Below, piece by piece: positions 2,756 to 64,000 of a stretch of DNA of 64,000 bases. This DNA is from Eublepharis macularius. Taxonomy: Eukaryota; Chordata; Lepidosauria; Squamata; Eublepharidae. A program made the translations under genes and the position numbers. Positions within the stretch are counted from its first letter, which is position 1, and the number at the start of each line of letters is the position of its first letter. The notes under the pieces were generated by a model that saw only the letters and a list, made by a program, of their open reading frames with translations, was not told the origin of the DNA and ran no database searches. Where the stretch lies: assembly GCF_028583425.1 (NCBI RefSeq), contig NC_072791.1, forward strand, positions 13,845,868 through 13,909,867. The letters are read 5' to 3'.

Positions 2756-2899
2756 CCCCTCCATTCAGTGCCCAGAAAGCCAAGAGGACCAATATGGTTG
2801 ACTAGGCAAGAATCTGCCCGTGGTGGTGGTGCAGAAAAGAGATATAAGGAGGAAAGCATTCTGCAACAACGGAGGTTACACTGAACAGGGAGAACCTGT

Positions 2900-3796: not shown

Positions 3797-3810
3797 AGGA
3801 TTGCACTGTT

Positions 3811-4708: not shown

Positions 4709-4722
4709 AGGATTGCACTGTT

Positions 4723-7090: not shown

Positions 7091-7094
7091 CACA

Positions 7095-8364: not shown

Positions 8365-8598
8365 GGGCCAAACTACAAGTGACGCCTGACACTACTTGGA
8401 CATTTGTCAGCTTGCCTCAAGTTTTGATGGGAAATGTAGGCAGCTTGGCAGAATGTTGGACAAGTGACACTTGAAAAGTCCATTGGACAGCAGTCAGAGA
8501 GCCAAGCTGCAAGACCAGGATGCCTACATTTCCCATCAAAATTTGAGGGAAGCTGACAAGTATCCAACTAGTGTCAGGCGTCACTTGTAGTTTGGCTC
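8365..8598. mobile_element. MITE, PIF/Harbinger-like, 3-bp TSD
   Basis: The terminal inverted repeats are gggccaaactacaagtgacg (left) and, reverse-complemented, gagccaaactacaagtgacg (right), both continuing into cctgacac. They are flanked by the trinucleotide tga at 8362-8364 and 8599-8601. Unit B has the empty site gcaactgagagtccc with a single tga at 33579-33593. No coding capacity. A relative lies at 15269-15408. Confidence 0.88.
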
Positions 8599-8603
8599 TG
8601 AGA

Positions 8604-8850
8604 GTCCCAGAGATGCTGGATCTCTCAAATCGTGCTGCAGACAACTGGAGAAGATTTCAGGAGCAGTCTGACTTGTCCATGGAAGCCACCAGAGCCATGG
8701 AGGAGCCAAAGATGAGGAAGGGGGCCCTACTTTGGAAGCTTGCAGGGCCCAAACCCACTGATTGGTTTAATATCTTTCCGTGAAATGTGCAGATGAGAAC
8801 TCTAAATATGATAACAAGTTGGAAGAGGTTTATATGTTGACTTAAAATGG
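8604..8850 (+). mobile_element. Gag-like fragment, possibly Ty3/gypsy (fossil)
   Basis: The plus frame reads VPEMLDLSNRAADNWRRFQE and onward. This resembles the N-terminal part of gag proteins of some vertebrate Ty3/gypsy elements (an L-D-L-S ... W-x-x-F pattern). The paralogous copy is 33575-33835. It is a broken old fragment lying head-to-head with the SCAN exon. Family assignment by eye only. Confidence 0.35.
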
Positions 8851-10273: not shown

Positions 10274-10433
10274 GGTTGATTCCAGATGGCTTACCTCCTT
10301 CCGGAACGTCGTGCGTCGTTGCGCTGAAATGCGAAATATCGTGCAAAACTCGCACGAGAAAACGCGATATTTCGTGTTTTCAGCGCAACAACGTGCGACG
10401 TTCCAGAAGGAGGTAAGCCATCTGGAATCAGCC
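10274..10433. mobile_element. Near-perfect palindromic foldback element
   Basis: A 160-bp sequence whose two halves are almost exact reverse complements: outer arm tgattccagatggcttacct, inner arm with aaatatcg and a short loop of about 14 bases. It is flanked by cag on both sides (10271-10273, 10434-10436), compatible with a 3-bp target duplication. It has no coding capacity. The near-perfect arms indicate a young insertion or strong template switching. Confidence 0.85.
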
Positions 10434-10534
10434 CAGGTCTCAGTCTTTCTGACTTCTGTATGGTGGTCAGTCCCTTGAATTGCAGCAACTTGCAGCTGTG
10501 CTCTACGATGAGATGCCTTCTGTTCTTCACAGGA

Positions 10535-11250
10535 GTCCTATAACATTAATACAGAGTTCATAGAAAGGAATGTTTCTGAGGAGAGAGTGTTTCTCCCTGC
10601 AGTTTCAGGCTCTCCAGCCTCTCAGGGAAAATTATACATATAATATCTATTTCAAATAGTCCCAACAATAATCAAATTTCAAACTAACAGCCAATTAATA
10701 TAAACACAATCCTCCCTTCCAATAATAAGTATAAGAAATTCTCATACCTATAACATTAATAGAGAGTTCATAGAAAGGAATGTTTCTGAGGAGAGAGTGT
10801 TTCTCCCTGCAGTTTCAGGCTCTCCAGCCTCTCAGGGAAAATTATACATATAATATCTATTTCAAATAGTCCCAACAATAATCAAATTTCAAACTAACAG
10901 CCAATTAATATAAACACAATCCTCCCTTCCAATAATAACTATAAGAAATTCTCATACCTATAACATTAATAGAGAGTTCATAGAAAGGAGTGTTTCTGAG
11001 GAGAGAGTGTTTCTCCCTGCAGTTTCAGGCTCTCCAGCCTCTCAGGGAAAATTATACATATAATATCTATTTCAAATAGTCCCAACAATAATCAAATTTC
11101 AAACTAACAGCCAATTAATATAAACACAATCCTCCCTTCCAATAATAAGTATAAGAAATTCTCATACCTATAACATTAATAGAGAGTTCATAGAAAGGAG
11201 TGTTTCTGAGGAGAGAGTGCTTCTCCCTGCAGCTTCAGGCCCTCCAGTCT
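10535..11250 (+). repeat. 210-bp tandem repeat, about 3.4 copies
   Basis: The landmark taacattaat occurs at 10541, 10751, 10961 and 11171, a strict 210-bp period. The units are nearly identical; the few differences include gaatg/gagtg and aagt/aact. The last copy decays after about 80 bp. No ORF is shared, and the cause is a recent local amplification within unit A. Confidence 0.93.
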
Positions 11251-11506
11251 CTCAGGGAAAATTGCGCCTTTTTTTCCTTATAAGGAATACTCCAACTGTC
11301 TATCTCCCTCTAGTGGGCAAGGGTTACATTTGCACCACAAAAAGCATGCCTCCACCGCTTTGGGGAGCCACCATGGAACCAAACCATGATTTAAAGACAC
11401 GTAAATAAATTCCAGTGCCACAAAAAAGTGTGGGAAGCATTAAAGACCCTGCAGAACAAGATTTTAGAAATGAAAACACCAAATTGGATCACTTTTATTA
11501 ATCCTT

Positions 11507-11818
11507 CGGGTTGCCAGGTCCAGGTTGGGAAATTCCTGGAGATTTTATTATTTATTTATTTATTTTATCGTATTTATATTCTGCCCTCCCCGCAAGCAGG
11601 CTCAGGGCGGATAACAACATTAAAACATTTAAAACATTTTGGGGGTGGAGCCTAAAAAGGTGGAATTTGGGGAGGAGAGGGGCCTCAATAATGTCATATA
11701 ATGTCATAGACTCTACCCTCCAAAGCAGCCATTTTCTCCAGGGGAACTGATCTCTGTGGCCTGGAGATCCGTTGTAATTCTGGGAGATCTCCAGTCCCCA
11801 CCTGAAGGCTGGTAACCC
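11507..11818 (-). repeat. ggttgccag-family MITE split by an L2-type tail
   Basis: The outer parts (gggttgccaggtcc at the left, gaaggctggtaacccc at the right) belong to the foldback family. An L2-type 3' tail on the minus strand (tttatt run then attctgccctccccgcaagcaggctcagggcgg) occupies about 11543-11640. Confidence 0.65.
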
Positions 11819-11909
11819 CATTCCCCATCCAAAGTGCTTCCGGATCAGCACAAAAGAGGCTGGAAGGGAAATAAATAAATGCTAATACAGCAAAAAACAG
11901 CAGGAAGTA

Positions 11910-12206
11910 TTAGTGTTGCCAGCCTCTAGGTAGTGGCTGGAAATCTCCTAGAATTACAATTGGCCTCCAGGCCACAAAGTAGGGTTGCCAGCCTCCAGGT
12001 AGTGGCTGGAGATCTCCCGGAATTACAAGTGGTCTCCAGGCCACAGAGATCAGTTCACCTGGAGAAAATGGCTACGGGGGGGGGTTGGACTCCATGGAAT
12101 TAAGCCATGCTAAGGTCCTTTCCCTCCCCAAACTCCACTTTCTCCAGGTTTCTACCCCTCCCCCCTGATCTCCAGGAATTTCCCAACTTGGAGCTGGCAA
12201 CCCTAT
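11910..12206. repeat. Two ggttgccag-family MITEs back to back
   Basis: A complete copy spans 11980-12206, from tagggttgccagcctcc to gagctggcaaccctat, with inverted termini. It interrupts or abuts a partial copy at 11910-11979 that begins agtgttgccagcctc. Another scrap lies at about 12286-12335. Confidence 0.75.
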
Positions 12207-19440: not shown

Positions 19441-21633
<2,193 letters not shown>

Positions 21634-33835: not shown

Positions 33836-35834
33836 TTATGAAGGGTACCTTTTAAAGTAAGGAGCTGAGCTATGAATAATATCTTAATAGCTTGCTTTCA
33901 GTCTAAAAATCCCTATTTGTTGTTGTTCAAGGACTTGTTGACTCATTAGGTCAACAAGTGTGAGGTGCCCATGATTTGAAGAGGTAGATTTCTAAAAGCC
34001 AAAGATCTTCCATTAGTAAAGGCAACTGAACTGTGCCAGGCTGCAGAAGTCACCTGGAAGACTGCCGATTATTTTGGCATAAACTGCACCACACTTATGG
34101 GAAAAAATTATGGGACTGCCTCTCTATCTCTGCCCACCACAGCAGCTTCACTCCTCTGAGCAGGGCCTTCTGCAGGTGCCACCCTGAAAATGGGCAAAAT
34201 CTATAGTTGCCCACTATTGCCCACTGTTTTGGAGATCTGAGTCATTTCTTAGGGTCAAATTATGCTGGGAGGGGAATCTGAAGTCCTTGAGGGGATGACC
34301 CTACATCTATTCTTTCCTGGGAAGGGCTGTGCATAATGGATGGATGCCCTGCTCTGCGTTCCATTGGGCTTGTGGCATAACCTGGCATGGGTTTGTTGGT
34401 TTAATTCAGGCCCCATCTTTTATTTCTCGGCCATGCTGGGATCAAAATGGGGCCATCAAAATGGGCTCCCTGTGAGGCTAGGGTCCTGGGGGCTACGCCA
34501 CACATGCACTCTCTCTGTAGTGGCCCCTATCATAGAGAATTACCTTCCTGAGAAGTTCAGGAAAGCTCCCCCATATCTGGCTTTCTTCACATTGTGGAAA
34601 ACTTAAGTATTTAGGAGGGCCTTTTTTCAGACAATAGGCCCGTGATATAAGAAAAGGCTCAGAAAGATAGTCTGGGAAAGGGAGGGGGACTAGAGCCTGG
34701 GAGTGTGCACCGGATGGCCCAGATCCAGTTTTGAGGGGTACAAAAGAATAACTTGGTATCCCTGAATTCCCAGGAAGTACTCTCATCCAATTAGAGAATC
34801 TTGAATTTATCCAGAGATTACTTCCTATGGGGGGGGGATGTATGGAGGGCCTTGTTCAAGTAAACAGCAGAACATTTGCCGGAAACCTAGTTTCTGACAA
34901 TTCACTAAAGACCCCGCAAGTTACAGGAAGATTGGATCCTGGGGACCAACTCTATGGCCCCCTGAATAAGCTGCCCCCAGCTTCTCTCTGTTGTTTCCTA
35001 GAGGAGAAACCATCAAACCAGAGAATCCCTAGGGGAGGGCTGAGGCTTGCTGAGCTGCGGAGTTTAAAAGGTGGCCAGAGATGCCGCCCTTATTGCAAGG
35101 AGGACTCAGCTCCACCCCCAGGGAAGAGGAGCTGCCAGAGAGAAAGCAGGAAAGCCCCGAAGGTCAATGGAGCCCTCTGGTTACTAAGGCCAAAAGCAGG
35201 GAGGCGTTTTGCAAAGGAAATATTTGTTCACTGCTTACCTCTTTTTAAAAAGTGCTCCAGTGCTGCCTCTCCTCCCCTTCCCCACTCAGCATAGGAAGTG
35301 ACAGTGGGAAGTCAGGTGACTTTCTCTCTTCATGCCTCTCTAGGAACAGAGACTCCTTCCCTTTAACCCTTAGATGGACTTTCCAGAAAGCCAAAACAAT
35401 CACTCCCGACAAAATAACACCACCCTCACATTGTAGATCATTTCTTAGTCTACAGGCAGCACCAAAACAATCACACACCCAGCACTTCAGGGCACTGTCA
35501 CAGGGCAATAATAAGAATCCAAGGCACGGGTCCTCATTGAGCCTGAGGATTTTTAAATGGGGTCCCCCCAAACTCACCATCAAATGACATATCATCTCTA
35601 TAGCCACAGACTGCACTGCAAACATCAAGCACCCACTGCTTTATGCCCCCCCCTTCCCACATACCAAAATGTGGCTACAAATCAGGGATCCTCTCTCAGG
35701 GACCCTCAGGATTCCTGTGTTTAGTCACTATACAAATTCATTATTTAAAAAATTGATCACATGTATGGCCACCGATTGCACCAGGCATCCACGACTTGGG
35801 GAAGCCGCCATGAGCAAAACAGTGATTTAAAGAC

Positions 35835-45810: not shown

Positions 45811-48506
45811 AAAGACTTTGCAGGAGCTACCAAAAAGTAATACTATGGAGTACAAATTGATTTCTTGGAATGTTAATGGACTGAATTCACCCCAGAAATG
45901 CAAATTAATTTTTCATTGGCTAAAGAAGCAAAAATGTAATATTATATGCTTACAAGAAACACATATTAAAGAACAGGGTAAGAAATTTTTAAAAAACTGA
46001 TAGTTGGGAAAAGAATTTTTGGCATCTGCAAAAGAAAAGAAAAGAGGGATTGTGATATATGTAAAGCAAGAATTAGACCCTAAAATGATTTTCAGAGATA
46101 AAGATGGAAGATATTTGGTGGTAGAAATAATGTTGAACTCCAAGAAAACTTTGGTTTTAGGAGTATATGCACCTAATGGTGCTAAAGATGGTTTCTATAA
46201 AGAAATAATTCAAAATTTAGATCAATATTCATATGATCAGATAATGATGATGGGAGATTTTAATGGAGTCGTTAATTTGCAATTAGACAAACAGCAAAAG
46301 AAAATACAAAGACAAGTAGGGAAACTACCCAAATCTTTTTTTGATTTAGTAAAACAGGAAATATGGAAGATATCTGGAGAAAATGGAACCCCAAGTTAAA
46401 AGACTTTACTTACTACTCTGCAAGACATCAGTCTTTTTCAAGAATAGACATGATCTGGACTACAAAGGACATAAGTTTATTGACAAAAAAATAGAGGTGA
46501 TGTCAAAGGTGAGTTCTGATCATAATCCGATGATGTGGAAAGCTTCGATGGGATATAGAAAATTTAGATGGAGATTGAATGAAGATTTATTTCAGAGTCA
46601 AGAGAAAGTGGACTATATTCAAAAGGAAACAAAGTATTTTTTTCAATATAACATGGGGAAAGAGGTGCCAATACATACGGTTTAGGATGCTTATAAAGCA
46701 GTGATCAGGAGAAACCTGATCACCTTGAATAGCAAAGAAAGAAAAAATAGGGAAAAGAAATTCCTGGAGATCCAAGAGAAAATAACCAAAAAGGAACTGG
46801 AGTTAAAGAAAAAAAACAGGGAAGAAAAAAATAATACAAGAAATTAGGATATTACAGAGACAGTTAGGGGCTTTTGTGAATAAAGAATTGGAATGGAAGC
46901 TAAAGAGTTTACAGCAAAAAACTTTTGAAGGAGCAAATAAGACAGGGAAATATTTAGCCTGGCAATTGAAGAAAAAAAGGGGAAAAAATAATTGGCAAAA
47001 TAGTTGAAGATGGAAAAGAAGTAATGGAACATCAAGGTATAAAGAGAGTAATCTATAAGTATTATGCCAAACTATTTCAAAAAAAGATAATTAACATGGA
47101 AAAAATAGATCGGCATTTGGACAAGGCGAAATTACCTAAGATTTCAGACACTATGAAGGCAACTTTAAATAATCCAATTACTGAAGAGGAAATTTTAGAA
47201 GCCATAGAGGCAACAAAAACAGGGAAAGCACCGGGCCCAGATGGAATTTCAGCTAAATTTTTATAAAATATTGAAAAAAGACTTGGTGCAAATTTTGAAA
47301 AAGTTGATGAATGAGATAATGAAGAAAGAAGGACTACCAAACACATGGAACGAAGCAAGTATCTCATTGATCCCAAAGGAGACACAATATTTAACAAATG
47401 TTAAAAGTTATAGGCCCATTTCTCTGTTAAACAATGATTATAAAATTTTCGCAAGAGTTTTAACGGAAAGGCTGAAGATATTTTTAATGGACTTTGTGGG
47501 AGAAGAACAAGCCAGATTCTTACCTAATAGACAAATAAGAGATAATTTGAGAGTTGTTATGGACACTATAGAATATTATGATAAGCACCCTGAAAAGGAG
47601 GTGGGCTTTTTGTTCGCAGATGTGGAGAAGGCTTTTGACAATTTAAATTGGGATTTTATGTTTTTAACAATGGAAAGATGGGACTAGGGCAAGAATTTAT
47701 AGAAGCCATAAAAGCTATTTACAAGGATCAAAAAGCGACACTATGTATAAATAATGACTTAACAGAAAAATTTGAGGTAAGAAAAGGTACAAGACAAGGA
47801 TGTCCACTTTCACCTTTGTTGTTTGTTATGGTTTTGGAAATACTGTTAAGACAGATAAGAGACGATTATAGTATTAAAGGCATAAGACTTAAAGGTTTCT
47901 CTTATACATTCAGAGCATTTGCAGATGATGTGATGTTTATTATTGAAGATCCAGTCCAGACATTACCATTATTATTAAATAAGATTAAAGAATTTGGAGA
48001 TCTGGCAGGTTTTTATATTAACAAATCAAAATCTAAATTGCTCTGTAAAAATATGATGAAAAAGAAACAAGTGGAGTTAATGAATGTTATGGAGTGTGAA
48101 GTGGTTCAAAAAACAAAATATTTGGGAACAGAATTAACAATGAAAATTATAGATTTATTTAAGAATAATTATGAAAAACTGTGGTCGCAATTAGAAAGAG
48201 ACATGGTAAAGTGGAACAAACTGAATTTGTCACTGTTGGGGCGTACATCAGTTGTAAAAATGAATGTGTTACCAAGAGTGATGTTCTTGTTGCAAAACAT
48301 CCCAATTGTAAAAGACAAAAAGCACTTTGATAAATGGCACAGGAAATTATCAGAGTTTGTGTGGGCAGGGATAAAGCCAAGAGTTAAGATGAAAGTGTTA
48401 TGTGATGCAAAAGAAAGGGGCGGATTACAACTACCAAATTTGAGACTATATCATGAAGCGATGTTTAACACGGTTAAGAGACTGGGTAAATTTATCCAAC
48501 TACAAG

Positions 48507-48680
48507 TAGGGATGTGCGTTTCGGCATTCTGAATGCCGAAAGAATGCCGAAACAAAAGTGTTTCGGCATTCTTCAAGAATCCCGAAACGTTTCGGGGAAT
48601 GCCGAAACGTTTCGGGATTGCCGAAAGAAAAACCCGAAACGTTTCGGGATTCTTTCGGCATTCTTTCGGCATTCGAGAAT
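48507..48680. repeat. Left terminal and subterminal repeats of the hAT element
   Basis: After the terminal inverted repeat come many copies of ttcggcattc / gaatgccgaa and cgaaacgtttcggg in both orientations. The right end (61610-61769) has the same words (cccgaaagaatgccgaa, ttgtttcggcattcgg). Subterminal short repeats are the usual transposase-binding sites of hAT elements. Confidence 0.85.
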
Positions 48681-48689
48681 CGCCATTTT

Positions 48690-48910
48690 GATTTTGCTAG
48701 CCGTTTGCCTTAGCAAGCGGCTAGCAAAATCCTGCTGGAAGCAAAGGCTTCCTGCAGGCTCTTAGAAGAGGGGAGGGGGGGAGAAGGAGTGAATCACTCA
48801 CTCCTTCTGTCACCCCCCACCCCTCTTGCAAAGGAGGATAGGGAATCCTGCTTTGCCTTGCAAATGCAAGGTGCAAGCATTGCATTGCACTTTGCATTTG
48901 CAAAGCAGCA
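48690..48910. repeat. Hairpins in the left arm of the hAT element
   Basis: Inverted repeats gctagccgtttgc / gcaagcggctagc at 48697-48727, and tgctttgccttgcaaatgca / tgcatttgcaaagca at about 48849-48907. Their function is unknown. Confidence 0.7.
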
Positions 48911-49129
48911 GAGATTCCCGCCAAAACTAACAGGTAGGGGAGGGGGAGCAGGAGGAGGGTGGCTCTTGGAGTGTGGGTGGGGAAAGGCAGGGGACTGGGG
49001 ACTTTAGGAGTCACCAATCCCACTGCTGCATTCTCATGCCAGCCAATAGATTTAAATCTTTGGCTGAGGCTGCAGCAGGGGATTTAAATTTGGAGCAAGA
49101 CTGTCTGGAACACTTCTGTTGCTGCTGCT

Positions 49130-49232
49130 GCTGAGCTGTGACCGAGAGAGGAGAAGAAGAGAGACTGCACCTGGAGCCTGGAGGACATCTGCCTGGAGGA
49201 TCAACTGTGCTGGACATCCTGAGAGGACACCT
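49130..49232 (+). promoter_or_regulatory. Possible untranslated first exon of the transposase transcript
   Basis: GC-rich leader ending GGACACCTG|GTAGGC, a plausible donor. It shares words (tggaggatcaac, gctggacatc) with later exon-like segments ending at 52621 (GTGGACTG|GTAGGG) and 53124. Inference from splice signals only; no transcript was seen. Confidence 0.4.
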
Positions 49233-49330
49233 GGTAGGCCTTTTTAAAATTTTTGTAAATTTTTTTGATGCTGGGCAATGTGCTGCTGTGGCCTGCCTCT
49301 GCAAAAAGGTGTTGCAGTTTATTCTTGGCA

Positions 49331-52270
49331 TGGCCTGGGGGACAGGTTGGGCAGACAATGTTTAATGGTGGGGTGGGGGTTTCAGCATTGGTTGTTGTGC
49401 TTGCCTTCTTTAAGCTTGATCCACTGTTTTAAGATTAAAACAAGAGTGTGCCAGCTTTGGGCCTACACAGGCCAGAAGCCTTTCTTCTGGCTGGCTCTCA
49501 CAGTTGTGCTCCACAATCTGGAATGGTGTGGCTTGCTTTTCTGTGTCTGGTCCCCTGCTTGCAAGGATTCCCAACAGGCTCCGTCCTGATCAACTGTGCC
49601 AGCCTGTGGGCCACACACAGGTATGGCCTGGGGGACAGGTTGGGCAGACAATGTTTGATGGTGGGGGGGGTTTCAGCATTGGTTGTTGTGCTTGCCTTCT
49701 TTAAGCTTGATCCACTGTTTTAAGATTAAAACAAGAGTGTGCCAGCTTTGGGCCTACACAGGCCAGAAGCCTTTCTTCTGGCTGGCTCTCACAGTTGTGC
49801 TTCACAATCTGGAATGGTGTGGCTTGCCTTTCTGTGTCTGGTCCCCTGCTTGCAAGGATTCCCAACAGGCTCCGTCCTGATCAACTGTGCCAGCCTGTGG
49901 GCCACACACAGGTATGGCCTGGGGGACAGGTTGGGCAGACAATGTTTGATGGTGGGGGGGGGGGTTCAGCATTGGTTGTTGTGCTTGCCTTCTTTAAGCT
50001 TGATCCACTGTTTTAAGATTAAAACAAGAGTGTGCCAGCTTTGGGCCTACACAGGCCAGAAGCCTTTCTTCTGGCTGGCTCTCACAGTTGTGCTTCACAA
50101 TCTGGAATGGTGTGGCTTGCCTTTCTGTGTCTGGTCCCCTGCTTGCAAGGATTCCCAACAGGCTCCGTCCTGATCAACTGTGCCAGCCTGTGGGCCACAC
50201 ACAGGTATGGCCTGGGGGACAGGTTGGGCAGACAATCTTTGATGGTGGGGGGGGGGGGGGGTTTCAGCATTGGTTGCTGTGCTTGCCTTCTTTAAGCTTG
50301 ATCCACTGTTTTAAGATTAAAACCAGAGTGTGCCAGCTTCGGGCCTACACAGGCCAGAAGCCTTTCTTCTGGCTGGCTCTCACAGTTGTGCTTCACAATC
50401 TGGAATGGTGTGGCTTGCCTTTCTGTGTCTGGTCCCCTGCTAGCAAGGATTCCCAACAGGCTCCGTCCTGATCAACTGTGCCAGCCTGTGGGCCACACAC
50501 AGGTATGGCCTGGGGGACAGGTTGGGCAGACAATCTTTGATGGTGGGGGGGGGGTTCAGCATTGGTTGTTGTGCTTGCCTTCTTTAAGCTTGATCCACTG
50601 TTTTAAGATTAAAACCAGAGTGTGCCAGCTTCGGGCCTACACAGGCCAGAAGCCTTTCTTCTGGCTGGCTCTCACAGTTGTGCTTCACAATCTGGAATGG
50701 TGTGGCTTGCCTTTCTGTGTCTGGTCCCCTGCTAGCAAGGATTCCCAACAGGCTCCGTCCTGATCAACTGTGCCAGCCTGTGGGCCACACACAGGTATGG
50801 CCTGGGGGACAGGTTGGGCAGACAATGTTTGATGGTGGGGGGGGGGGGGTTTCAGCATTGGTTGTTGTGCTTGCCTTCTTTAAGCTTGATCCACTGTTTG
50901 AAGATTAAAACCAGAGTGTGCCAGCTTCGGGCCTACACAGGCCAGAAGCCTTTCTTCTGGCTGGCTCTCACAGTTGTGCTTCACAATCTGGAATGGTGTG
51001 GCTTGCTGTTCTGTGTCTGGTCCCCTGCTAGCAAGGATTCCCAACAGGCTCCGTCCTGATCAACTGTGCCAGCCTGTGGGCCACACACAGGTATGGCCTG
51101 GGGGACAGGTTGGGCAGACAATGTTTGATGGTGGGGGGGGGGGTTTCAGCATTGGTTGTTGTGCTTGCCTTCTTTAAGCTTGATCCACTGTTTGAAGATT
51201 AAAACCAGAGTGTGCCAGCTTCGGGCCTACACAGGCCAGAAGCCTTTCTTCTGGCTGGCTCTCACAGTTGTGCTTCACAATCTGGAATGGTGTGGCTTGC
51301 CTTTCTGTGTCTGGTCCCCTGCTAGCAAGGATTCCCAACAGGCTCCGTCCTGATCAACTGTGCCAGCCTGTGGGCCACACACAGGTATGGCCTGGGGGAC
51401 AGGTTGGGCAGACAATGTTTGATGGTGGGGGGGGGGGGTTCAGCATTGGTTGTTGTGCTTGCCTTCTTTAAGCTTGATCCACTGTTTGAAGATTAAAACC
51501 AGAGTGTGCCAGCTTCGGGCCTACACAGGCCAGAAGCCTTTCTTCTGGCTGGCTCTCACAGTTGTGCTTCACAATCTGGAATGGTGTGGCTTGCTGTTCT
51601 GTGTCTGGTCCCCTGCTAGCAAGGATTCCCAACAGGCTCCGTCCTGATCAACTGTGCCAGCCTGTGGGCCACACACAGGTATGGCCTGGGGGACAGGTTG
51701 GGCAGACAATGTTTGATGGTGGGGGGGGGGGGTTTCAGCATTGGTTGTTGTGCTTGCCTTCTTTAAGCTTGATCCACTGTTTGAAGATTAAAACCAGAGT
51801 GTGCCAGCTTCGGGCCTACACAGGCCAGAAGCCTTTCTTCTGGCTGGCTCTCACAGTTGTGCTTCACAATCTGGAATGGTGTGGCTTGCCTTTCTGTGTC
51901 TGGTCCCCTGCTAGCAAGGATTCCCAACAGGCTCCGTCCTGATCAACTGTGCCAGCCTGTGGGCCACACACAGGTATGGCCTGGGGGACAGGTTGGGCAG
52001 ACAATGTTTGATGGTGGGGGGGGGGGGTTCAGCATTGGTTGTTGTGCTTGCCTTCTTTAAGCTTGATCCACTGTTTGAAGATTAAAACCAGAGTGTGCCA
52101 GCTTCGGGCCTACACAGGCCAGAAGCCTTTCTTCTGGCTGGCTCTCACAGTTGTGCTTCACAATCTGGAATGGTGTGGCTTGCTGTTCTGTGTCTGGTCC
52201 CCTGCTAGCAAGGATTCCCAACAGGCTCCGTCCTGATCAACTGTGCCAGCCTGTGGGCCACACACAGGTA
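49331..52270 (+). repeat. ~294-bp tandem array, ten units, inside the hAT element
   Basis: The landmark tggcctgggggacaggttgg occurs at 49331, 49624, 49915, 50208, 50506, 50798, 51094, 51388, 51682 and 51977, with an eleventh, diverged start at 52271. The spacing is 291-298 bp, the variation lying mainly in a G-run of 7-14 bases. Units 1-3 have aaaacaagagtg, later ones aaaaccagagtg; the last five alternate gcttgctgtt / gcttgccttt, a two-unit higher-order pattern. ORFs that run across the units are a by-product. Each unit holds a possible exon (see findings). Confidence 0.97.
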
Positions 52271-52500
52271 TGCTGCTTTGGCCAAGGTAACCCTTTTTGG
52301 TTGCTGGCCTGGCACTCACAGTTGTGCTCCACAATCTGGAATGGTGTGGCTTGCGTTTCTGTGTCTGGTCCCCTGCTTGCAAGGATTCCCAACAGGCTCC
52401 GTCCTGATCAACTGTGCCAGCCTTCGGCCCACACACAGGCCTGCTGCTCCGGCTTTGGTAACCCTTCCCGTTTGCTGGCCTGGCACTCACTGTTTTGCTT
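52271..52500 (+). repeat. Diverged partial units after the 294-bp array
   Basis: Two shorter relatives of about 160 bp contain the actcacagttgtgctccaca and gattcccaacaggctccgtc core but lack the G-run part. They begin tgctgctttggccaaggtaa and tgctgctccggctttggtaa and may resemble the ancestral unit. Confidence 0.8.
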
Positions 52501-53811
52501 CACATTCAGGTTGTTTATCGTTGGTGGACCTCTTCTGGACTGGACTGCACTTGGTGGACATCGGCCTGCAGATCTCTGCGTGGAGGATCAACATTGCTGG
52601 ACATCTGCACTGGTGGACTGGTAGGGTTGTTGTTAAATTTGGTTTTTGAGCTTATGTCTGCTGCTGTGCCTACCTGCGAGCATATGCTTTGGCTCTGTCT
52701 TTATGGCTTGGGCCGGGGGGGGGGGGCATTTTCTGGTTGGGCAAGAGGATATTGTTTGGGGGTTAGGGGGGCCAGCATTGATCGCAGTGCCAGCTTTCTT
52801 TCATGTTTCATTTTTCAAGTTTGAGTGTGGGGGTGGGCATGAACTGCTGTTTCACAGGACTAAAAAATGAGTGTGCCAGCTTCTGGCCTGCACAGGCCAG
52901 AAGCTCTGCTGGGTGGATGTGTTTTGTTTTGCTGCTGGTTGGCCCTAGCCTTTAAGGGGGGGGGGGCTGACTTGGCTTGTGCAACGGGGCCTTGAATTTT
53001 GGGGTTGCGTGTGCGGCGTGTGGTGTTGACTCTGCTAACATTTCCAATTTTCTTGACAGCATCGTGGAGGAGAGGAGGACCAGCTGCAAGACCGCCTGAA
53101 CATCGCTGGACTGCAGGACTGGTGTTAGTGTGAGCGAGTCCGGGTTGACATTTGGGTGGCCTTGGGGGTGGGTTCTTGCTAGCTTGGGAGGGGGGAGGCT
53201 CATCTTCAAAACACCACATCCACACCCCACACCGACATACCACAGATACATCGGTCCCGCTAAATAGTGTCTCTTAGGTAGGTAGGCCAGTTGGTAGGTG
53301 ATCAGTGGATAATTGCCCTCAACATAATTATTAGGGAAACCGAGCCTAGTTTTTTTTAAAAAACTAAATAGGGACTCAGCAGGGAAAGCATTAGTGAGTG
53401 AGTGTTAGGTTTGAATTCTATATATATATATATATATATATAAAAATTTGTAATAGCTGTCAATAGGCTTCCCATTAGTGCCCCCATAACTAGGGTTCCA
53501 CTGCCCATCTCTGGCACACGTGGTGGTGCCAGGCCGGCCCGGGCATACTAGTGTGTGAGTGTTTAAGGCTTCGTCACCTGTTATTGGGGTTTAGGGCCAG
53601 CTCAATTCCAGAGGAATTCAGCTGATTGGCAGGCTCAGGTTCCCTGACATAAATAGGGTTGCTTAAAAAGGCACTTGATTGTTCATCTCCAAGTCACAGA
53701 GCCACTAGAAACACAGATTTATAGCAGGTTAGTTAGGTCTTGAAAACAAAGTTGACCTTTGTTTTCTAAATCTTTTCTGATTAGTTAGGGTTGAATTTGG
53801 GAGGGGAAAGT
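52500..53811 (+). promoter_or_regulatory. 5' region of the transposase ORF, candidate exons and acceptors
   Basis: A good acceptor (tttccaattttcttgacag) at 53042-53060 opens an exon-like segment ending near 53124. Another (ttgttttctaaatcttttctgattag) ends at 53784, 27 bp before the transposase ATG, with a branchpoint-like tctaaat. A (ta)n run lies at 53419-53442. The two acceptors suggest the transposase mRNA has a spliced 5' leader. Confidence 0.5.
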
Positions 53812-56550
53812 ATGTCAGAGAGGAAAGCAGAGAGGGGACCCGGGGGAAAGGCTAGGGAGAAATCTAGAGGGGAGGAGGGGAGGGGGAGGGGGACTGCTGC
53901 GGCAGCCCCTCCATCTGAGCGGAGGAGGCCCTCCCCTGCGCTGCTGCCGTTCACCAGCCTGGCTTCTGGTGACAGGAAGAGGGTTCGCAAGACTCTCTTT
54001 CCTGAGGCAGCTGCTGGAGGGCCACCCCCAACCCGGGTGCGTGAGGCAGGGGCTGGCACTGGGCAGGGGCCTGCTGCTGAGGCTCCTCCTCCTCCAGTGG
54101 TTGCGAGCCAGCTGCTGGAGGAGGGGCAGCATGTGGTGTCTCCTGGGATGGGCGCGGAGCACATGACTTTCCCTGCGCTCCCGCTCACCCCAGGAACCCG
54201 GAGGATGTTGGAGGAACTGCCCGTGAGACCCCCCCTGGGGCGGTCCACCCCAGTTTCCTCTGAGGCCAGCAGCAGGCCTCTCGCGGCTGTGCAGGAGGAG
54301 AGGACGCGGGAGGAAGAGGCAGAGACTGTGGTGGAAGAGCCCACATCTCTGCCCCTTCAGCCTCGTCCATCCCCACCTGCCCGGCCGAGAGTGGGACACG
54401 GTGTGTCCGGCCAGAGCACCTCACAGGAGGTGCCGCAGGGTGGTCCCGAACGCACTTCTCCTGGGAAGCGTGGGATGCCCTTTTCCTCCGAAATCTGGAA
54501 GCACTTCCAGACAACGGAGGATCCCCGAGCAGCCCTGTGCCTGCATTGTAGGCAGCGCGTCAGCCGTGGCAAAGATGTGTGGCATCTCTCCACGTCTGGG
54601 ATGAGGTACCATATGAAGAGGCACCACCAGGCGGTGCTTCTTCGGGAGGAGGGTTCGAGTGGCGCCGCACGGCCGCCAGCTAGCCAGAAGGAGGCAGGCT
54701 CCTCTGGTGCTCTCCCCCCAAGGGTACCTGCAGGAAAGGGACGCCAAGCCTCTCTCCCGGAGATGCTTGGTATGCAGGGCGCTAGTGTGCCCAGAGAGGG
54801 GATCCGGAGGGCGAGCAGGCGCATCACGCGCCACATCGTCAACATGATAGCAGTGGATGGGCAACCGTATTCCGTAGTTGAAGACTTCGGCTTCTCAGGG
54901 CTGCTCCAAGATTGCTTTCCCTGGTACGCCGTCCCTGCTCGCACGTCGTTGAGCAGATCGGTGGTGCCCTCGTTTTACAGGGCTGCCAGGGATCATGTGA
55001 AGGCACAGCTGTCCCGGGTTGCCGGGAGAACTGTGCACTTCACATCGGACATCTGGACCTGCCCAAGTGTGCAGCAAGCGTACCTCTCGCTTACTGCTCA
55101 CTGGTGGGAACCCGAGTCGGTTCTGGGTGGGGGCCGGGGGGAGGTGCCTAGCACAGCTAGACAGGGAAGGATGCGAGACCGCCAGGCCGGCTACTGCAAG
55201 GCCTTGCTTCACGCCGAGGTGCTCGACGTGTCCCACACGGCGGAGAACATCGCTGCCACCTTAAGGAGACAGTTGGACGAGTGGATAGGCCAGGGACCCG
55301 CCACCGTGGGATGCATGGTGACGGACGGTGGCAAGAACATGAGGGCAGCGGCGCATCTAGTGAGCCGAGAGAGCGTCTACTGTGCCGCTCACAAGCTTCA
55401 CCTAGTGGTGAGAGATGCGCTGGGGTTGGGCTCCTCGAAGGAACCCGTGGATACCCGGACCCGTGAACTCCAGTTACTTGTCCAGAAATGTCGGAGGCTC
55501 ACGGGTCACTTCTCGCGCAGCGTGAAGGCCACGCACGAACTGCGCCAGACACAGGTCAGGACAGGTGTGCCAGAGCACGCTCTGATCACTGACGTCAGCA
55601 CTCGCTGGAACTCCACCTGCGCCATGCTTGAGCGCTTGGTGGAGCAGCAGGCCGCACTCCACGCGTGGCTCTCCGAGCACCGCGGTGCGAGTCAGGTGGG
55701 TGAGTTCAACCGGGAGGATTGGCTCACCATCACCCAGACAGTGGAGGTCCTGAAGCCCTTCAAGGACTTCACTGTGGCGGTCTCGTCAGACACGGCGACC
55801 CTCGGTCTGGTCATTCCCCTGGTGCACACGCTCCAGAGGAATCTGGCCACCCTTGCAGACCGGGTCGCGCCCCGTGCTGACCTTGTTCCAGCGGTGCGCG
55901 CATTAGTGAGAAGGCTGCAGCAGGGCATAGCTGCCAGGCTAACTCCTCTCACTAAGGAAGAGTCATACATGTTGGCGACCATGTGTGACCCGCGCATAAA
56001 GGGCACTTTCGCCGAGCGGGACGGGAACCTCACCCAAGCCAGAGACGGGCTCTGCTCTTGGGTGAGGCGCAGGCAGGCCAAGAGGGGACGCCTGTCGACA
56101 GGGGGGACGCAAGAGGGGCCCTGCCGTGCGGGTCCCTCTGACGCCCCCTCTGCGCAGGCCCCCCCCGAGGCCACCACCGGAGTGCCGATGGAGATGGAGA
56201 TGCTCCGGTGGGCCCTCGTCCCCTCTGGGGTCGTGAGGACCGTGAGAGAGGATCCGGCGGAGGCGATGGTCAGGGACTACCTCGCGGAGCCCTGCGAGTC
56301 GCTCTCCACCGATCCGCTCAGCTACTGGGCCAGGAAGGAGTCGGTCTGGCCGGACCTCTCCCTCGAGGCGCAGCGGCTGCTCTCATGCCCTCCGACGAGC
56401 GTGGAGAGCGAGCGCGTCTTTTCACATGCGGGCGACATTGTCGGCCCACATCGCACTCGCCTTCTCCCATGGAGAGTCGAGCAGTTGACCTTCCTGAAGG
56501 TCAACTCTCGCCTCTTCGATTTCTCAGGACTGGACTTCCAGAGTGACTGA
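53812..56550 (+). CDS. hAT transposase (BED finger), intact ORF
   Basis: An uninterrupted 912-residue protein starting MSERKAERGPGG; ATG has A at -3 and is the first ATG after a strong acceptor. Residues 1-220 are proline/arginine-rich and look disordered. The BED zinc finger is at about 222-275 (WKHFQTTEDPRAALCLHC, then HMKRHH). An RNase H-like fold follows with catalytic acids in FTSDIWT (about D412), MVTDGGKN (about D505) and the C-terminal SVESERVFSHAGD (about E866). Other hAT marks are CAAHKLHLVV (about 524), TDVSTRWNST (about 597) and the dimerisation segment DPLSYWARKESVWPDLSLEA. The enzyme would bind the element's ends and cut and rejoin DNA in the nucleus. The ORF is GC-rich, in contrast to the surrounding AT-rich L1. 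It is longer than typical hAT transposases (600-800 residues). Domesticated ZBED genes share this layout, but the termini and target duplication show this copy is inside a transposon. Confidence 0.96.
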   Translation: MSERKAERGPGGKAREKSRGEEGRGRGTAAAAPPSERRRPSPALLPFTSLASGDRKRVRKTLFPEAAAGGPPPTRVREAGAGTGQGPAAEAPPPPVVASQLLEEGQHVVSPGMGAEHMTFPALPLTPGTRRMLEELPVRPPLGRSTPVSSEASSRPLAAVQEERTREEEAETVVEEPTSLPLQPRPSPPARPRVGHGVSGQSTSQEVPQGGPERTSPGKRGMPFSSEIWKHFQTTEDPRAALCLHCRQRVSRGKDVWHLSTSGMRYHMKRHHQAVLLREEGSSGAARPPASQKEAGSSGALPPRVPAGKGRQASLPEMLGMQGASVPREGIRRASRRITRHIVNMIAVDGQPYSVVEDFGFSGLLQDCFPWYAVPARTSLSRSVVPSFYRAARDHVKAQLSRVAGRTVHFTSDIWTCPSVQQAYLSLTAHWWEPESVLGGGRGEVPSTARQGRMRDRQAGYCKALLHAEVLDVSHTAENIAATLRRQLDEWIGQGPATVGCMVTDGGKNMRAAAHLVSRESVYCAAHKLHLVVRDALGLGSSKEPVDTRTRELQLLVQKCRRLTGHFSRSVKATHELRQTQVRTGVPEHALITDVSTRWNSTCAMLERLVEQQAALHAWLSEHRGASQVGEFNREDWLTITQTVEVLKPFKDFTVAVSSDTATLGLVIPLVHTLQRNLATLADRVAPRADLVPAVRALVRRLQQGIAARLTPLTKEESYMLATMCDPRIKGTFAERDGNLTQARDGLCSWVRRRQAKRGRLSTGGTQEGPCRAGPSDAPSAQAPPEATTGVPMEMEMLRWALVPSGVVRTVREDPAEAMVRDYLAEPCESLSTDPLSYWARKESVWPDLSLEAQRLLSCPPTSVESERVFSHAGDIVGPHRTRLLPWRVEQLTFLKVNSRLFDFSGLDFQSD

Positions 56551-56899
56551 GGTGAGCCCAACTTGTGGCCTGCATCCTCTATGAGTCCAATCCTTTGGAA
56601 TCGCGCTCTCCCCTGTATAAAACCCTGTATATACAGTTAAAACCGGCCAGTAGAGGGAGGGTGGTTAGGAACCAGTGGCAAAGGGAAAACACCCAGCAAT
56701 TTGAAAGCCCCCCCCCCAGGGTATTCAAAACATCTCCCATCACTGAGACATACCCTGTGGGACCAAATTTATTATGAAAAATAATGCCCCAGAAACATGG
56801 ATTGCTACTGGAGGGAGAAACAGGTTAGATAGGGATTGCTTAGGTGTTTTTATCAGATGAAATCATTGTAAAAAAAATTGTAGAAGAATTGTTGTACTG

Positions 56900-57300
56900 T
56901 TTTTTGAAAGTTGATGTTCTGTTCATGTAAAAAAAAGGAAAAAAAACCAAAAAAAAATGTTGTGATTATGTTTTTTAAAAGTTGATGTTCTGTTCATGTA
57001 AAAAAAAGGAAAAAAACCCCAAAAAAATGTTGTGATTATGTTTTTTAAAAGTTGATGTTCTGTTCATGTAAAAAAAAGGAAAAAAAACCAAAAAAAAATG
57101 TTGTGCTTATGTTTTTTAAAAGTTGATGTTCTGTTCATGTAAAAAAAAGGAAAAAAAACCCAAAAAAATGTTGTGATTATGTTTTTTAAAAGTTGATGTT
57201 CTGTTCATGTAAAAAAAAGGAAAAAAACCCAAAAAAAAATGTTGTGCTTATGTTTTTTAAAAGTTGATGTTCAGTTCATGTTTAAAAAAAAAAATTTGAT
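56900..57300 (+). repeat. A-rich ~70-bp tandem array, six units
   Basis: The landmark ttgatgttctgttcatg occurs at 56911, 56982, 57052, 57123, 57193 and 57264 (last copy changed to ttcagttc). Units are joined by A-runs and ttgtgattatgttttttaaa. It lies about 350 bp after the transposase stop, so in the 3' UTR. Confidence 0.95.
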
Positions 57301-57544
57301 GTTAATGTTGGGTTTGCATGGTTGGGGGATGCGGGAAGAGTGGTGGATGGGCACCGGCCAATGATGATCTCTCACAGATGTTCCCAGGTAAATTCTGAGG
57401 CTGGTGTGGGGGTGGGGGGAGACCTCTGCAGAACTGCTCCAGAAATACCATTGTCCAGTGCCTTGGAAGTGCCCAGTTCAGCTTTGTGTGTCTGAACTGA
57501 AAGCACAGCCACAGGAAATGACATAGGTTCTGCTGGACCCTGTT

Positions 57545-58060
57545 GCAGTGGTTCCCCCCCATTAAGTCGTTTTATGGAGGGAGAGTTGTATTAGGCTGGT
57601 AGTTATTATGATCATCTTCTGTTTCCATGCCCTGTTGTGCCCGCTCACTATGTAACCTGTTGTAATGTTCAAAACTTTACTGTTTGTCCATTTCAAAAAA
57701 AAAATTGTGTTTAAGATTCTCTGATGTGTAGTTAATTGTGTTGTGTTGTGCTATGAGGGACAATAAGTGTAATATGTTGTGATTTGTTGACCACTTGTAA
57801 TTTGAAAATGAGAAAATAAAGGTTTTTTAAACTTAATGATTGTGTGTCTGTGTTCCCTTCTTTGATGGGAGGTTGGTTCCCAGCATAGGGAACAATGGGG
57901 CAGGCTGGCCAGCCTGTTCCTGGGGTACTCGGTGTGGGGCAGCTGAGGGTGGTTTTGGTTCTGAGAGGGGCTGAGTGGAGGATTTGGGTCTGTGTGTGGC
58001 AGCTGGGGTGGGGGAACTGGGTTTGTGTGGGGCTGAAAGGAGTGGACTATGGGGGATGAG
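57545..58060 (+). repeat. 3' module of the hAT element, copy 1, with poly(A) signal
   Basis: The sequence 57545-57925 recurs almost unchanged at 60371-60745 (attaagtcgttttatggagg, ggctggtagttattatgatc, gaaaatgagaaaataaaggt). AATAAA lies at about 57815. The following part to 58060 (gttcctggggt ... ggggctgaaagg) recurs at 60912-61045. Confidence 0.9.
57812..57822 (+). terminator. Polyadenylation signal for the transposase transcript (likely)
   Basis: AATAAA in gagaaaataaaggtttttta, followed by a GT-rich stretch (gattgtgtgtctgtgttccc), the usual downstream element. The duplicate lies near 60652. Confidence 0.6.
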
Positions 58061-60350
58061 AGCACTGGTCGTCCCTTTTGCCCAAGTAGGCCCCTGCTAC
58101 TGTCCTGGTGTGGGCTTCCATGCCTCTATCAGTTGCTGGCCCTCCTTTGCCATCTTTTTCAGAAATTTTCCTAGGGCTGCCAAACTCCTGGTTGGGCTTG
58201 AGTTCAGGTTAGAGAGAGTAGTTCCCTACAGATAAACTGGCTGCTTCCAAGGGCAATCTCTTTAGAGGGCAAATGCGGACCATGGATTCTGGGGGAGATC
58301 CCTACTCAGATTTTCCTTTCCACAAGTCCCACCCCCAAATTGCCAGTAACTTCCAAGGCCAGAGTTTGCCACCCCAGAGAGATCCCGTTCCCACCCTCTT
58401 AGCCTTGGCATGAAAGTTGTAGCCCCCATGGAACGCTTCCAGGTTCCTGATTCCAAGCCCAATGACACCAATGTAAGACAATCCAGACCTCCATCAAAAA
58501 TGGATTTTAAGTAGCAGTGGGATTGGGCTGCATTTCAGTCATTCACATATCTGGTTGTGTTCCCAAACATTTAGCTTATGGTTTTTTAAATCGGCGTATG
58601 GCACTTAAGGACACTTTTAAATGGTTCTAAAAACATATTTTTATTATGAAGTATTTAATGTGGCATTGATCAAGGGCAGGCCTTTTGGCCAAATGAGCAG
58701 TATCAGTACAGTAAAATTTAGACAAAGCTCATAGGAGGAAAAAGCATTCACACTGTGAAGTGGGAAGAAAGTTTCAATTTACATGTACCATGGACTCCGA
58801 AAAAGACATGTCCAGACCAAATCAGGCCTGCTTTCTCCCTTGAAGATATCAATTGATGATAGTGCTTATGTCACATCATGAGAAGACAAGGTTCACTAGA
58901 AAAGACAATAATGCTAAGAAAAATTGAAGGCAGTAGGGAAAAGAAGAATACCCTAGATGTGGTAGATTGACTTCGGTTTGCAATACATGGACAAGGTTTT
59001 TGGGATACTGTGGAGCTCAATATAATTCTAAAGTACACCACAAGTGATTTGAATGCATAAAACATACAGACACATACACATAAAATGTATATACCCCCTC
59101 CCCACCAAATTAAAGGTTTATCTTATGCCCCGGTTTTCTCCCCCATGGGAACCTAGAGTGGTTTACACATTGCTGTTCTCCCTTGATTTGTTTCACCCTC
59201 ATCACAACCAGGCTAACAATAGACAGCTGCTCCATGCCTCACATTGGAGTGACTCCACCGATGGCCTTCTTAGTTGTATGAGGGGGTGGAGGGGGGGGGA
59301 GGAAGGAAACAACGCACTCCTGCCCACTCTATCTGGGGCCTAGGTTGCCAAATTGCTTGGCCTTGGCAAGGAGCCAGTGGTGGGGCGGCACTGGTTCTGG
59401 GGCCCCGTCAAGAACATTTGTCCAGGGCCCCAAAATCACCTAGACTGCCTCTGGAAAACACAACACAATTGTTTACTTAGGCTGAGCCAAGAACATCCAT
59501 CAAGCCTACAAGGCACAGAATCAGAGTCTGCCAGATTCTAGACCAACTCTCTAGCCATTGCACTACAGTGGATATCTAAAAATTGTTCATACCCCCACCA
59601 GCAACTTGAACATTTTTCTCCAAAAGGCACACAACTTGGCTGGGTCTCAAAAAGGACTATGATGCATGGGCCTGTCAATGCATACTGGTACTAAGGCTCT
59701 GGCCGGGGGGAGGGGGGCATTGTGCCAATGCCACCCTGGCTTTGGAAGGGGACAGTAAAATAGAAGAAATAATCTAGCTTCAGTGCCTCCCCCCCTTCTC
59801 TCTCTCTCTCTCTCTCTCTATAATGTGAGTGAAAACATTACTATACCATCACTGAAGCCTACAGGATACATAGGGTCTGTTCACACACGCATGATCATTT
59901 AATGGCAATGCTCTGGCATGATGATGTCTGTTCTAGGAAGTGATGTGATCATCACACAAGGCTGGGGAGCACGCACAATTCACAGCAGGCAGATTTGGGC
60001 CACAAGGGATCCTGCTTTGGCCTGCAGGGCCCAAATCAGCCCACTGCAAAGCACAGGCATACTCTCAGGGCAGCCAGATGACATCAGTGACATCACGGCA
60101 GCAGCCCCTGGAGCGTACCTTGAAGGCTCATTCACTGACTTTCCCCCTTCGGGGTGATAGGTGAGAGTGGGGGATCCCCCACCAAGGGGAAACGGATCCC
60201 TAATTGTGTCTGAGGTTGTGGAAATCAAATGGGTCATATTGCTTCTGTCTTTGAGGGACTTACATGCACATTATATTTAACTCCAGATTTCTTGATTGTC
60301 AAGGAATGCATGTGGTGGGGGGTGGGGGGAAGGGTGGGAGAAGGGCCCCA
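58061..60350. other. Captured-looking segment between the two 3' modules
   Basis: No transposon-specific text. It contains old SINE-like remains at about 59125-59215 and 59515-59575 (cagattctagaccaactctctagccattgcactac, a degraded box region on the minus strand) and a (tc)n run at 59799-59818. No coding exon is recognised; short frames are unremarkable. Confidence 0.5.
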
Positions 60351-60370
60351 GAGGGTTGGGGGGGGGATTT

Positions 60371-61060
60371 TGTTGCAGTGGTTCCCCCCCATTAAGTCGT
60401 TTTATGGAGGGAGAGTTGTATTAGGCTGGTAGTTATTATGATCATCTTCTGTTTCCATGCCCTGTTGTGCCCGCTCACTATGTGACCTGTTGTAATGTTC
60501 AAAACTTTACTGTTTGTCCATTTCAAAAAAAAAAATGTGTTTAAGATTCTCTGATGTGTAGTTAATTGTGTTGTGTTGTGCTATGAGGGACAATAAGTGT
60601 AATATGTTGTGATTTGTTGACCACTTGTAATTTGAAAATGAGAAAATAAAGGTTTTTTAAACTTAATGATTGTGTGTCTGTGTTCCCTTCTTTGATGGGA
60701 GGTTGGTTCCCAGCATAGGGAACAATGGGGCAGGCTGGCCAGCCTTCTCTGCGGGTGGTGGGGGGGTCAGGGGGGTGGTTGTCTGTGTGCCAGGGCAGGT
60801 GCTCTTTCCCAGGGACGATTTGGCACTGCCACCATTGTGGCACCCCTTGTCTGTGCAGAACTGCCCTGGGAAAGAGAGTTTAGGGGTTCCCAAAAGGGGA
60901 GGGCAGGCCAGCCTGTTCCTGGGGTTATGGTGGGTGTGGGGCAGGTGGGGGTTGATTTGGGTCTGTGAGGGGCTACTGGGGGGATTTGGGTCTGTGTGTG
61001 GCAGCTGGGGGGGAATTGGGTTTGTGTGGGGCTGTGAAGGGTGGACTTTAGGGGCTGAGA
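60371..61060 (+). repeat. 3' module of the hAT element, copy 2
   Basis: Near-identical to 57545-58060, with an additional segment at 60747-60905. The signal AATAAA lies near 60652. Confidence 0.9.
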
Positions 61061-61380
61061 GCACCTACTTGGGGAGGCCATGAAATGGCCCCCCCAAGTG
61101 GGAGCAGGCTGAGCCTTGGTGGGGGGTGGGAGGAGGGGTGGGAGAAGGGCCCCAGAGGGTTGGGGGGCATTTTGCATGCAAAATGCCACCCCTGGCAACA
61201 CAAGCCTCCCCCAGCTGTCAGTGGTAGAGATTAGAGCACCTACTTGGGGAGGCCATGAAATGGCCCCCCCAAGTGGGAGCAGGCTGAGCCTCGGTGGGGG
61301 GTGGGAGGAGGGGTGGGAGAAGGGCCCCTGAGGGCTGGGGGGCATTTTGCATGCAAAATGCCACCCCTGGCAAAGGAAGC
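61060..61380 (+). repeat. ~180-bp direct repeat, two units
   Basis: The string cacctacttggggaggccatg occurs at 61062 and 61230, each followed by tgggagcaggctgagcctyg, a G-rich run and gcattttgcatgcaaaatgc. A partial relative is at 60310-60365. Confidence 0.88.
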
Positions 61381-61599
61381 CTGCTTCTTCATTTTTTCCC
61401 CATAGGAAATAATGAAGAAGATGCTCCTTTATGGGAGGATGGGGGGACCTGCTTTGGGGGGCCATAACATGGCCCCCCAAAGTCCAATCTGTCTGAAACT
61501 TGGGTGGGTGTTAGAGAAGGGTTAGAGGAAGGTCCCCACCAATTTTGGGCTTATTTGGTGGGAAAATGCCTCCTCCAGGCGTCCTGAAAGACGGAGGCA

Positions 61600-61769
61600 T
61601 TTTCCCAGCAAAATAACCCGAAAGAATCCCGAAAGAATGCCGAAATAATGCCGAATCCCGAATCCCGAAAGAGATTCTTGTTTCGGCATTCGGCTAATGC
61701 CGGTAGAGAATCTTGTTTCGGGTAATCCCGAAACAAGAAAGCCGAAAGTTTTTTCCTTGCACACCCCTA
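61600..61769. repeat. Right subterminal repeats and terminus of the hAT element
   Basis: Clustered cccgaaagaatgccgaa-type words in both orientations, then ccttgcacaccccta at the end, the inverted partner of the left terminus. Confidence 0.87.
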
Positions 61770-63124
61770 ACTACAAGCTGTTAACTTTGGAGGGTCATAA
61801 CAATTTGTTTGGTTGGCATGCATACTTATGTTATGAGAAATATAAAATGGATGGTATGTTTCAACACCACTTTGTAAGGAGAAATATTTTTTCGGTTTGG
61901 CAAAAATACAAAAAATATACAGAGGAGAAAAGGCCTATGTGGATTGTGCCAGCAGAGGTGATAAAACCACATACAGACTGTCAAGGAGAAGACTGGATAA
62001 CATATAAGGAATTATTGTTGATAGAGACATTGTAAAAATGAAGAAAGAAGAAGACTTACCTTTTAAATATAGATGGTTACAATACCGACAAATTAAAGAC
62101 TTATTTGAAGTAGATAAAAGAAAAGTAGGTTTCAGAACTAGAAATTCAGAGTTAGAAGAACTTTTACTTGGAGAGGGAACAAAAATAATTTCTAAGCTTT
62201 ACAAATTGTTACTGAAATGGTACACAGAAGATGAAACGGTTAAGACACAAATGGTGAAATGGGCATTAAATTTTAATGAAGAGATGGCAATGGAGGCATG
62301 GGAATACTTGTGGAAAAATACTATGAAAATATCTACATGTGTTAATTTAAAAGAGAATGGATATAAGATGATGCATAGATGGTATTTAAAACCGAAAAAA
62401 TGAGCAAATATGAGTAACGTTATGTCAAACAAATGTTGGAAATGTAAACAACATGAAGGCTCTTTCTATCATATGTGGTGGACTTGTGATAAAGCTAAGC
62501 AATTCTGGTCTAAGATATATGCGGAAATGTTGATAATTATGAAAGGTAATTTGTCAAAATGCCCTGAAATGTTTCTGATAGGGCTTAATATGGAAAAAGT
62601 CAATGTACTGGACAGGACATTATTGTATTACATGTTGGTGGCAGCAAGATTATTATATGCGCAATACTGGAAGCAAGAGGAGATACCAGAAATTGAGGAT
62701 TGGATTCAAAAACTGTTGTACATGGTGGAGATGGAGAAATTGACAAGAAAATTGGATGAACAAAGCTCACATGAATTTTTAAAGGACTGGGAAAAACTTA
62801 AAGAGTATTTGGAAAATAAGTAGGATGTAAAAGGAAACTATGGTCTATGGATAGTTATTAATATGTATATGAGAATACAACTAAAAACTATGTAAGAACT
62901 TTACCTTTGAAAACTGGGACAAATATTAGAATAGAAGGAAATGATAAGATTTAAAAAGGTTTTAGCGCTGTTGGGGGTCTAGGGTAAAAGGGGGAGGGAG
63001 GGTGGGAAATGTGTATTTGAATTGATAAGTGTGAGACAATTAGTACTAGTTGAAAACAAAAAGGATGTAATATGTAATCTGTGAAATGTATGTTAACCTA
63101 TGCAATAAATTTCTTTTAAAAAAA

Positions 63125-63185
63125 AGGAAATACAGTTGGCTCTTGGAATAAAGCTCTTTCCACACTCAATGTAGTTATATGGCTT
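63125..63185 (-). pseudogene. Start of the degenerate finger tail of gene D
   Basis: Sixty-one bases of decayed finger text after the stop, ending in the L1 target duplication. They continue at 43503-44036. Confidence 0.85.

Positions 63186-64000
<815 letters not shown>

Follow-up and report, generated by a model that had tools for sequence, protein, structure and literature searches.

In a window of 64,000 nucleotides from the gecko Eublepharis macularius (RefSeq assembly GCF_028583425.1, contig NC_072791.1, forward strand 13,845,868 to 13,909,867; positions below count from its first letter) the segment 48507-61769 has the ends and the transposase gene of a hAT DNA transposon, at a length of 13,263 bp. 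The locus raises the question whether so long an element is complete and able to move, and how it came to its size. In our view the segment is quite probably a hAT transposon that is complete, inserted recently, probably autonomous, and enlarged by internal duplication.

Boundaries of the element and its terminal repeats

The tips are terminal inverted repeats of 11 bp that match at 10 positions (TAGGGATGTGC and TAGGGGTGTGC), and the 8-bp target site duplication ACTACAAG is present on either side (Table 1). For hATs in general terminal inverted repeats of 10-25 bp are given (PMC3942097). Other registers can be drawn, for example a 9-bp match AACTACAAG with the element ending at 61768; the 8-bp register is preferred because the tips pair in this register only. 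The preliminary description of a 13.26-kb hAT with matching ends and an exact duplication is thus confirmed.

The window was scanned for exact 8-bp direct repeats around 11-bp inverted repeats with at most one mismatch and a spacing of 200-15000 bp, leaving out 8-mers with more than 60 occurrences. Two pairs were obtained, and none in each of ten block-shuffled controls. The second pair was rejected since its 8-mer GAGATCTC is itself a palindrome and only lengthens the inverted repeat; its two 11-bp arms are identical and separated by 9.3 kb (2721-12008), and it resembles a short inverted repeat and not a transposon.

Next to the tips lie dense arrays of a CGG-containing motif. The sequence TTTCGGNATTC occurs 18 times in the 64 kb with at most one mismatch, and all occurrences are within 48519-48674 and 61624-61747, that is, at most 170 bp from the tips. 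The expectation is 3.45, and 18 occurrences were reached in none of 100 shuffles. On both strands together TTTCGG is found 35 times in the window, 21 times inside the 354 bp of the element ends. When up to two mismatches are allowed, the tip pattern shows no enrichment over the window (22 sites, 29.5 expected), but it is matched exactly at the element's own two ends only.

The segment 61435-61584 is about 64% similar to 34836-34984 on the minus strand and more weakly to 1303-1403. Both matches were rejected as relatives. Tip-like sites with two mismatches each do lie near the former (34322, 34698, 35030), but because such sites are at chance level this match is not taken for a related element.

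The insertion interrupts an L1 for which the preliminary description had given at least seven breaks. From stop-to-stop frames we count about ten, eight to the left and two to the right of the insert, and none in the hAT open reading frame (ORF). When one copy of the target duplication is removed, an L1-like frame reads through the junction. A junction-spanning stretch of 43 residues is identical at 14 positions to another L1 copy at 27 kb (26 bits, weak when taken alone), and the junction-spanning frame appears as a 72-residue tblastn match with an E value of 0.003. A protein search with an L1 fragment yielded a single unnamed match, at 38% identity.

Table 1. Coordinates of the element, its internal repeats and the interrupted L1
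Feature	Positions	Strand	Remark
Left part of broken L1	45271..48506	+	
Left target site duplication ACTACAAG, 8 bp	48499..48506		identical to 61770-61777
Left terminal inverted repeat TAGGGATGTGC, 11 bp	48507..48517	+	10/11 complementary to right end
Left subterminal array, TTTCGG(C/G)ATTC in both orientations and three AAACGTTT palindromes	48519..48674		
Minisatellite, 10 units of ~294 bp, each with a 117-bp segment between splice-like AG and GT	49330..52272	+	
hAT transposase ORF	53812..56550	+	912 codons, zero internal stops
71-bp tandem array, 5.5 copies, 3' of ORF	56898..57291		
Block X, 375 bp, with AATAAA	57541..57915	+	99.5% identical to 60371-60745, 2 mismatches
Spacer between X blocks, 2,455 bp	57916..60370	+	
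Block X, second copy	60371..60745	+	
175-bp duplication, 1.8 copies, near right end	61058..61373	+	
Right subterminal TTTCGG array	61624..61747		motif scan
Right terminal inverted repeat TAGGGGTGTGC, 11 bp	61759..61769	-	pairs with left tip
Right target site duplication ACTACAAG	61770..61777		exact copy of left
Right part of the same L1	61778..62823	+	

The transposase gene and its relatives

The uninterrupted 912-residue transposase with its catalytic residues, as described before, is borne out. The protein has a BED finger (residues 226-273), a predicted DDE core of the RNase H-like fold and a C-terminal hAT dimerisation domain (821-896), the domain set of a hAT transposase, and all six scored residues of the core (D413, D505, E867, C524/H527 and W599) are retained. 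The ORF is flanked within the element by 5,305 bp before and 5,219 bp after it. With a complete transposase gene between paired ends it has the structure of a putative autonomous hAT element. Upstream of the ORF there is an acceptor-like site at 53060, which lies at the 97th percentile; splice scores here and below were calculated with frequency tables.

It could be argued that the element is a large derivative which was mobilised by the transposase of another copy and whose own intact gene is incidental. Internal duplications would be tolerable if the enzyme were supplied from elsewhere. A stop-free frame of 912 codons is, however, unlikely to last long without selection, and we regard this origin as improbable.

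Protein searches, in which only the candidates with most shared words were scored (7995 and 7993), yielded seven matches for the full-length query and 84 for residues 340-912. The closest full-length protein among them, P0001, is a ZBED4-like protein of Eublepharis macularius which aligns to 100% of the query at 55% identity, followed by proteins of lizards, frogs, caecilians and unnamed sources, many of which also carry a ZBED4-like name. For a tree we used residues 201-912 of the window protein and of 36 of the 88 relatives (37 rows). The window transposase is sister to P0001 with a support of 100/100, and the pair then groups with one protein of Pogona and one further protein of Eublepharis (97/98), so that a squamate host is probable. 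The tree program marks the window row and seven others for unusual composition. Another Eublepharis macularius protein, P0060, is named cytochrome P450 2C26-like, yet starts with 99 residues of hAT transposase sequence that are 67% identical to the window protein. Either two genes have been fused in the gene model or a hAT fragment has been exonised, as is probable.

In viral contigs and prokaryote genomes 10 and 19 stretches, respectively, fit the peptide pattern and none was confirmed by tblastn, and the doubled end motif has no exact match in the viral contigs; these collections may omit records of the window itself. Empty searches of this kind are the expectation for a vertebrate element.

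Age, CpG pattern and present mobility

If the intact frame has been neutral since the insertion, its survival limits the divergence to at most 0.64-1.46% at the 95% level. This bound is a rough one, which assumes neutrality, an indel/substitution ratio of 0.05-0.15 and a CpG factor of 1 or 10.

The CpG content is distributed very unevenly. The observed/expected ratio is 1.88 at the left end (48507-48700) and 1.43 at the right end (61601-61769), 0.65 in the ORF, 0.07-0.30 in the remaining parts and 0.33 for the whole element; outside, the L1 flanks have 0.32 and 0.28, and for the initial 45 kb of the window the value is 0.27. The pattern TT[TC]NNG[GC], in whose core C/T and G/A were accepted, is matched at 21 terminal sites, and every one of them has CG there, a count that is blind to sites changed outside the core. 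We read this pattern as that of a lineage which has long resided in a methylating genome and in which selection on moving copies has kept the functional CpGs, and the present copy as too young to have lost them. Unmethylated ends would yield an identical picture.

The recent activity suggested before is thereby supported, only indirectly, by the bound from ORF survival, the terminal CG cores and the near-identical internal repeats. It is well conceivable, and the most serious alternative, that the copy is structurally complete and immobile, having inserted recently into a genome where its family has since been stopped by silencing or by its excessive length. This alternative is compatible with a complete and recently inserted hAT transposon and denies present activity only. 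The strong CpG depletion of most non-coding parts is what a long-methylated lineage would leave. The closest relative, P0001, has N for D505 and C for R598 and is without the E867 region, and all six residues are kept in 14 of 28 rows (P0001-P0005, P0008-P0030). Against this alternative stand the six of six residues and the 21 of 21 matched terminal cores that this copy retains.

Internal repeats and the length of the element

Part of the unusual length is internal repetition. The 294-bp units vary at 12 aligned columns, and gaps aside units 7 and 9 are the same, as are units 8 and 10, so that the last amplification step was probably the duplication of a dimer. Block X is repeated 2.83 kb downstream of its first copy, and the 3' part also holds a 172-bp stretch with an 84% match. 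At its edges the spacer is similar to sequence from the right part of the element; for its middle portion the best match elsewhere in the window has an E value of 0.066 and is not significant. Because the spacer is mostly unmatched, the 2.83-kb spacing does not represent a full duplication. The range 57900-60400 was scanned for 8-bp direct repeats accompanied by 10-bp inverted arms (at least 8 matching), and none was found. The 147 bp following the second block X are absent after the first, and the two edges of this gap have a short sequence in common, which is the type of scar left by short-homology repair. Without the extra copies the element would measure about 9.7 kb and without the spacer as well about 7.3 kb. 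The length emphasised in the preliminary description is real, and 3-6 kb of it consist of additional internal copies together with the mostly unmatched spacer.

Each of the ten 117-bp segments of the minisatellite comprises a whole number of codons and is open in one frame. Their GT sites are at the 98.6-99.2 percentile among all GT of the window and their AG sites at the 92nd percentile among all AG. Since tandem units share these splice-like sites by descent, the ten copies cannot be counted as independent evidence. The segments may be spliced as putative exons. The region 49330-52272 looks as if a 5' exon and its intron were amplified.

Synthesis-dependent annealing repair of excision gaps leads to duplications together with deletions and has been suggested for Ac/Ds (PMC3878927). 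By analogy, a similar origin of the duplications in the present element is plausible.

Part of the length might instead be an artefact of the assembly, with the array or the region of the 375-bp blocks wrongly expanded or joined, and the unit pairs that are identical apart from gaps and the 99.5% likeness of the blocks would fit that case. On the other hand, the units of the array change gradually from its left to its right side and finish in an alternating dimer pattern, the blocks run into different sequence with the 147 bp after one of them only, and the ends, the target duplication and the ORF do not depend on the lengths of array or blocks. We think such an error unlikely. That the gene is a selected host gene derived from a hAT transposase, as the ZBED4-like names of many relatives might suggest, is very improbable, since a domesticated ZBED gene no longer lies inside transposon ends, whereas here paired ends and a target duplication surround the gene and all six residues are kept.

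Proposed transposition and growth of the element

For a complete and probably autonomous hAT transposon the following course can be proposed. The gene at 53812-56550, probably preceded by untranslated exons, would supply the transposase. The CGG-containing arrays at either end would be bound by the BED finger of this protein and the DNA-binding region next to it, and the Hermes-type DDE RNase H core would cut at the TAGGG(A/G)TGTGC tips. Insertion would proceed via an 8-bp staggered joint, in this case into an old L1. It is established that hATs move by cut-and-paste and insert with an 8-bp stagger, and we infer this mechanism here from the anatomy. Growth most plausibly occurred by repeat slippage and error-prone repair of excision gaps; in this proposal the element is large because internal DNA was amplified or duplicated and a spacer was gained. 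The mechanism as such is already known, and what stands out is how large and intact the element is and how rich in CGG its ends are.

The predicted recognition has parallels. According to one study, hAT proteins bind subterminal repeats and tips via their BED finger together with the Hermes-type domain beside it, these domains usually prefer CGG or CGC, and for four hAT proteins a motif was obtained that matches the subterminal regions of their own elements (PMC8097297). By analogy the CGG-bearing terminal arrays fit BED-type recognition as predicted sites.

Several points weigh against this interpretation. Although length is a typical and not a defining property, hATs are given as 2.5-5 kb and the element is far outside this range (PMC3942097). 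Within the 64-kb window a further copy bearing the same ends was not observed. Beside 31 CpG the ends hold 15 TpG and 13 CpA, so that decay outside the matched cores is possible. The furthest-reading left L1 frame (47639-48505) differs from the frame which crosses the joined site, which implies a frameshift just left of the insertion. Some hAT proteins are described as binding AT-rich motifs and not CGG (PMC8097297). Finally, no protein among the candidates scored exceeds 55% full-length identity; the earlier assignment to an undescribed family holds to this extent, as a judgement on protein candidates.

Comparison with known hAT elements

In the alignment the window transposase shares with Hermes the fold, the catalytic triad, the CxxH and the W motif, with 22% identity over 425 aligned residues. 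Hermes is a hAT of the house fly and a shorter element. Ac of maize has a BED finger. A full-length Tol1 of about 20 kb is said to exist in medaka; as a precedent it would make great length uncommon among hATs and yet no novelty.

Ac resembles the present element in its 11-bp ends, its 8-bp duplication and its subterminal hexamer repeats, but is described as 4.6 kb long with the hexamer AAACGG in place of TTTCGG(C/G)ATTC (PMC3260210). AAACGG was not found in the two ends of the element. Tol1 and Tol2 of medaka are reported as vertebrate hAT elements found active, and with 4.4 and 4.7 kb, as listed there, they are shorter (PMC10175614). The CGGBP-type hAT proteins, mainly of hAT-19, likewise combine a BED with a Hermes-type domain, and their subterminal motifs mostly contain CGG as far as described (PMC8097297). 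A literature search found no giant vertebrate hAT, which is a weak negative as subscription papers and repeat libraries were mostly outside its scope.

We regard the element as a good candidate for a vertebrate transposon with recent activity. If this is true, hATs tolerate large internal growth, and the element offers a test case of how BED-type transposases recognise CGG and of how transposons maintain CpG-containing binding sites within a methylated genome. One may speculate further, with little confidence, that it is a currently active giant hAT of an amniote with methylation-sensitive ends, whose 21 CG cores, kept within DNA that is otherwise poor in CpG, let the transposase engage only unmethylated, for example freshly replicated, ends, and whose ten 117-bp cassettes tune the splicing of the transposase mRNA.

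Neighbourhood of the element

ARAGORN reported no tRNA gene in the window, and nine Rfam matches with E values of up to 0.1, all under the gathering score, were dismissed as chance. Two zinc-finger stretches, 63128-63600 and 19899-20371, are about 91% identical over 473 bp, and their sequence suggests duplicated C2H2 zinc-finger genes around the element.
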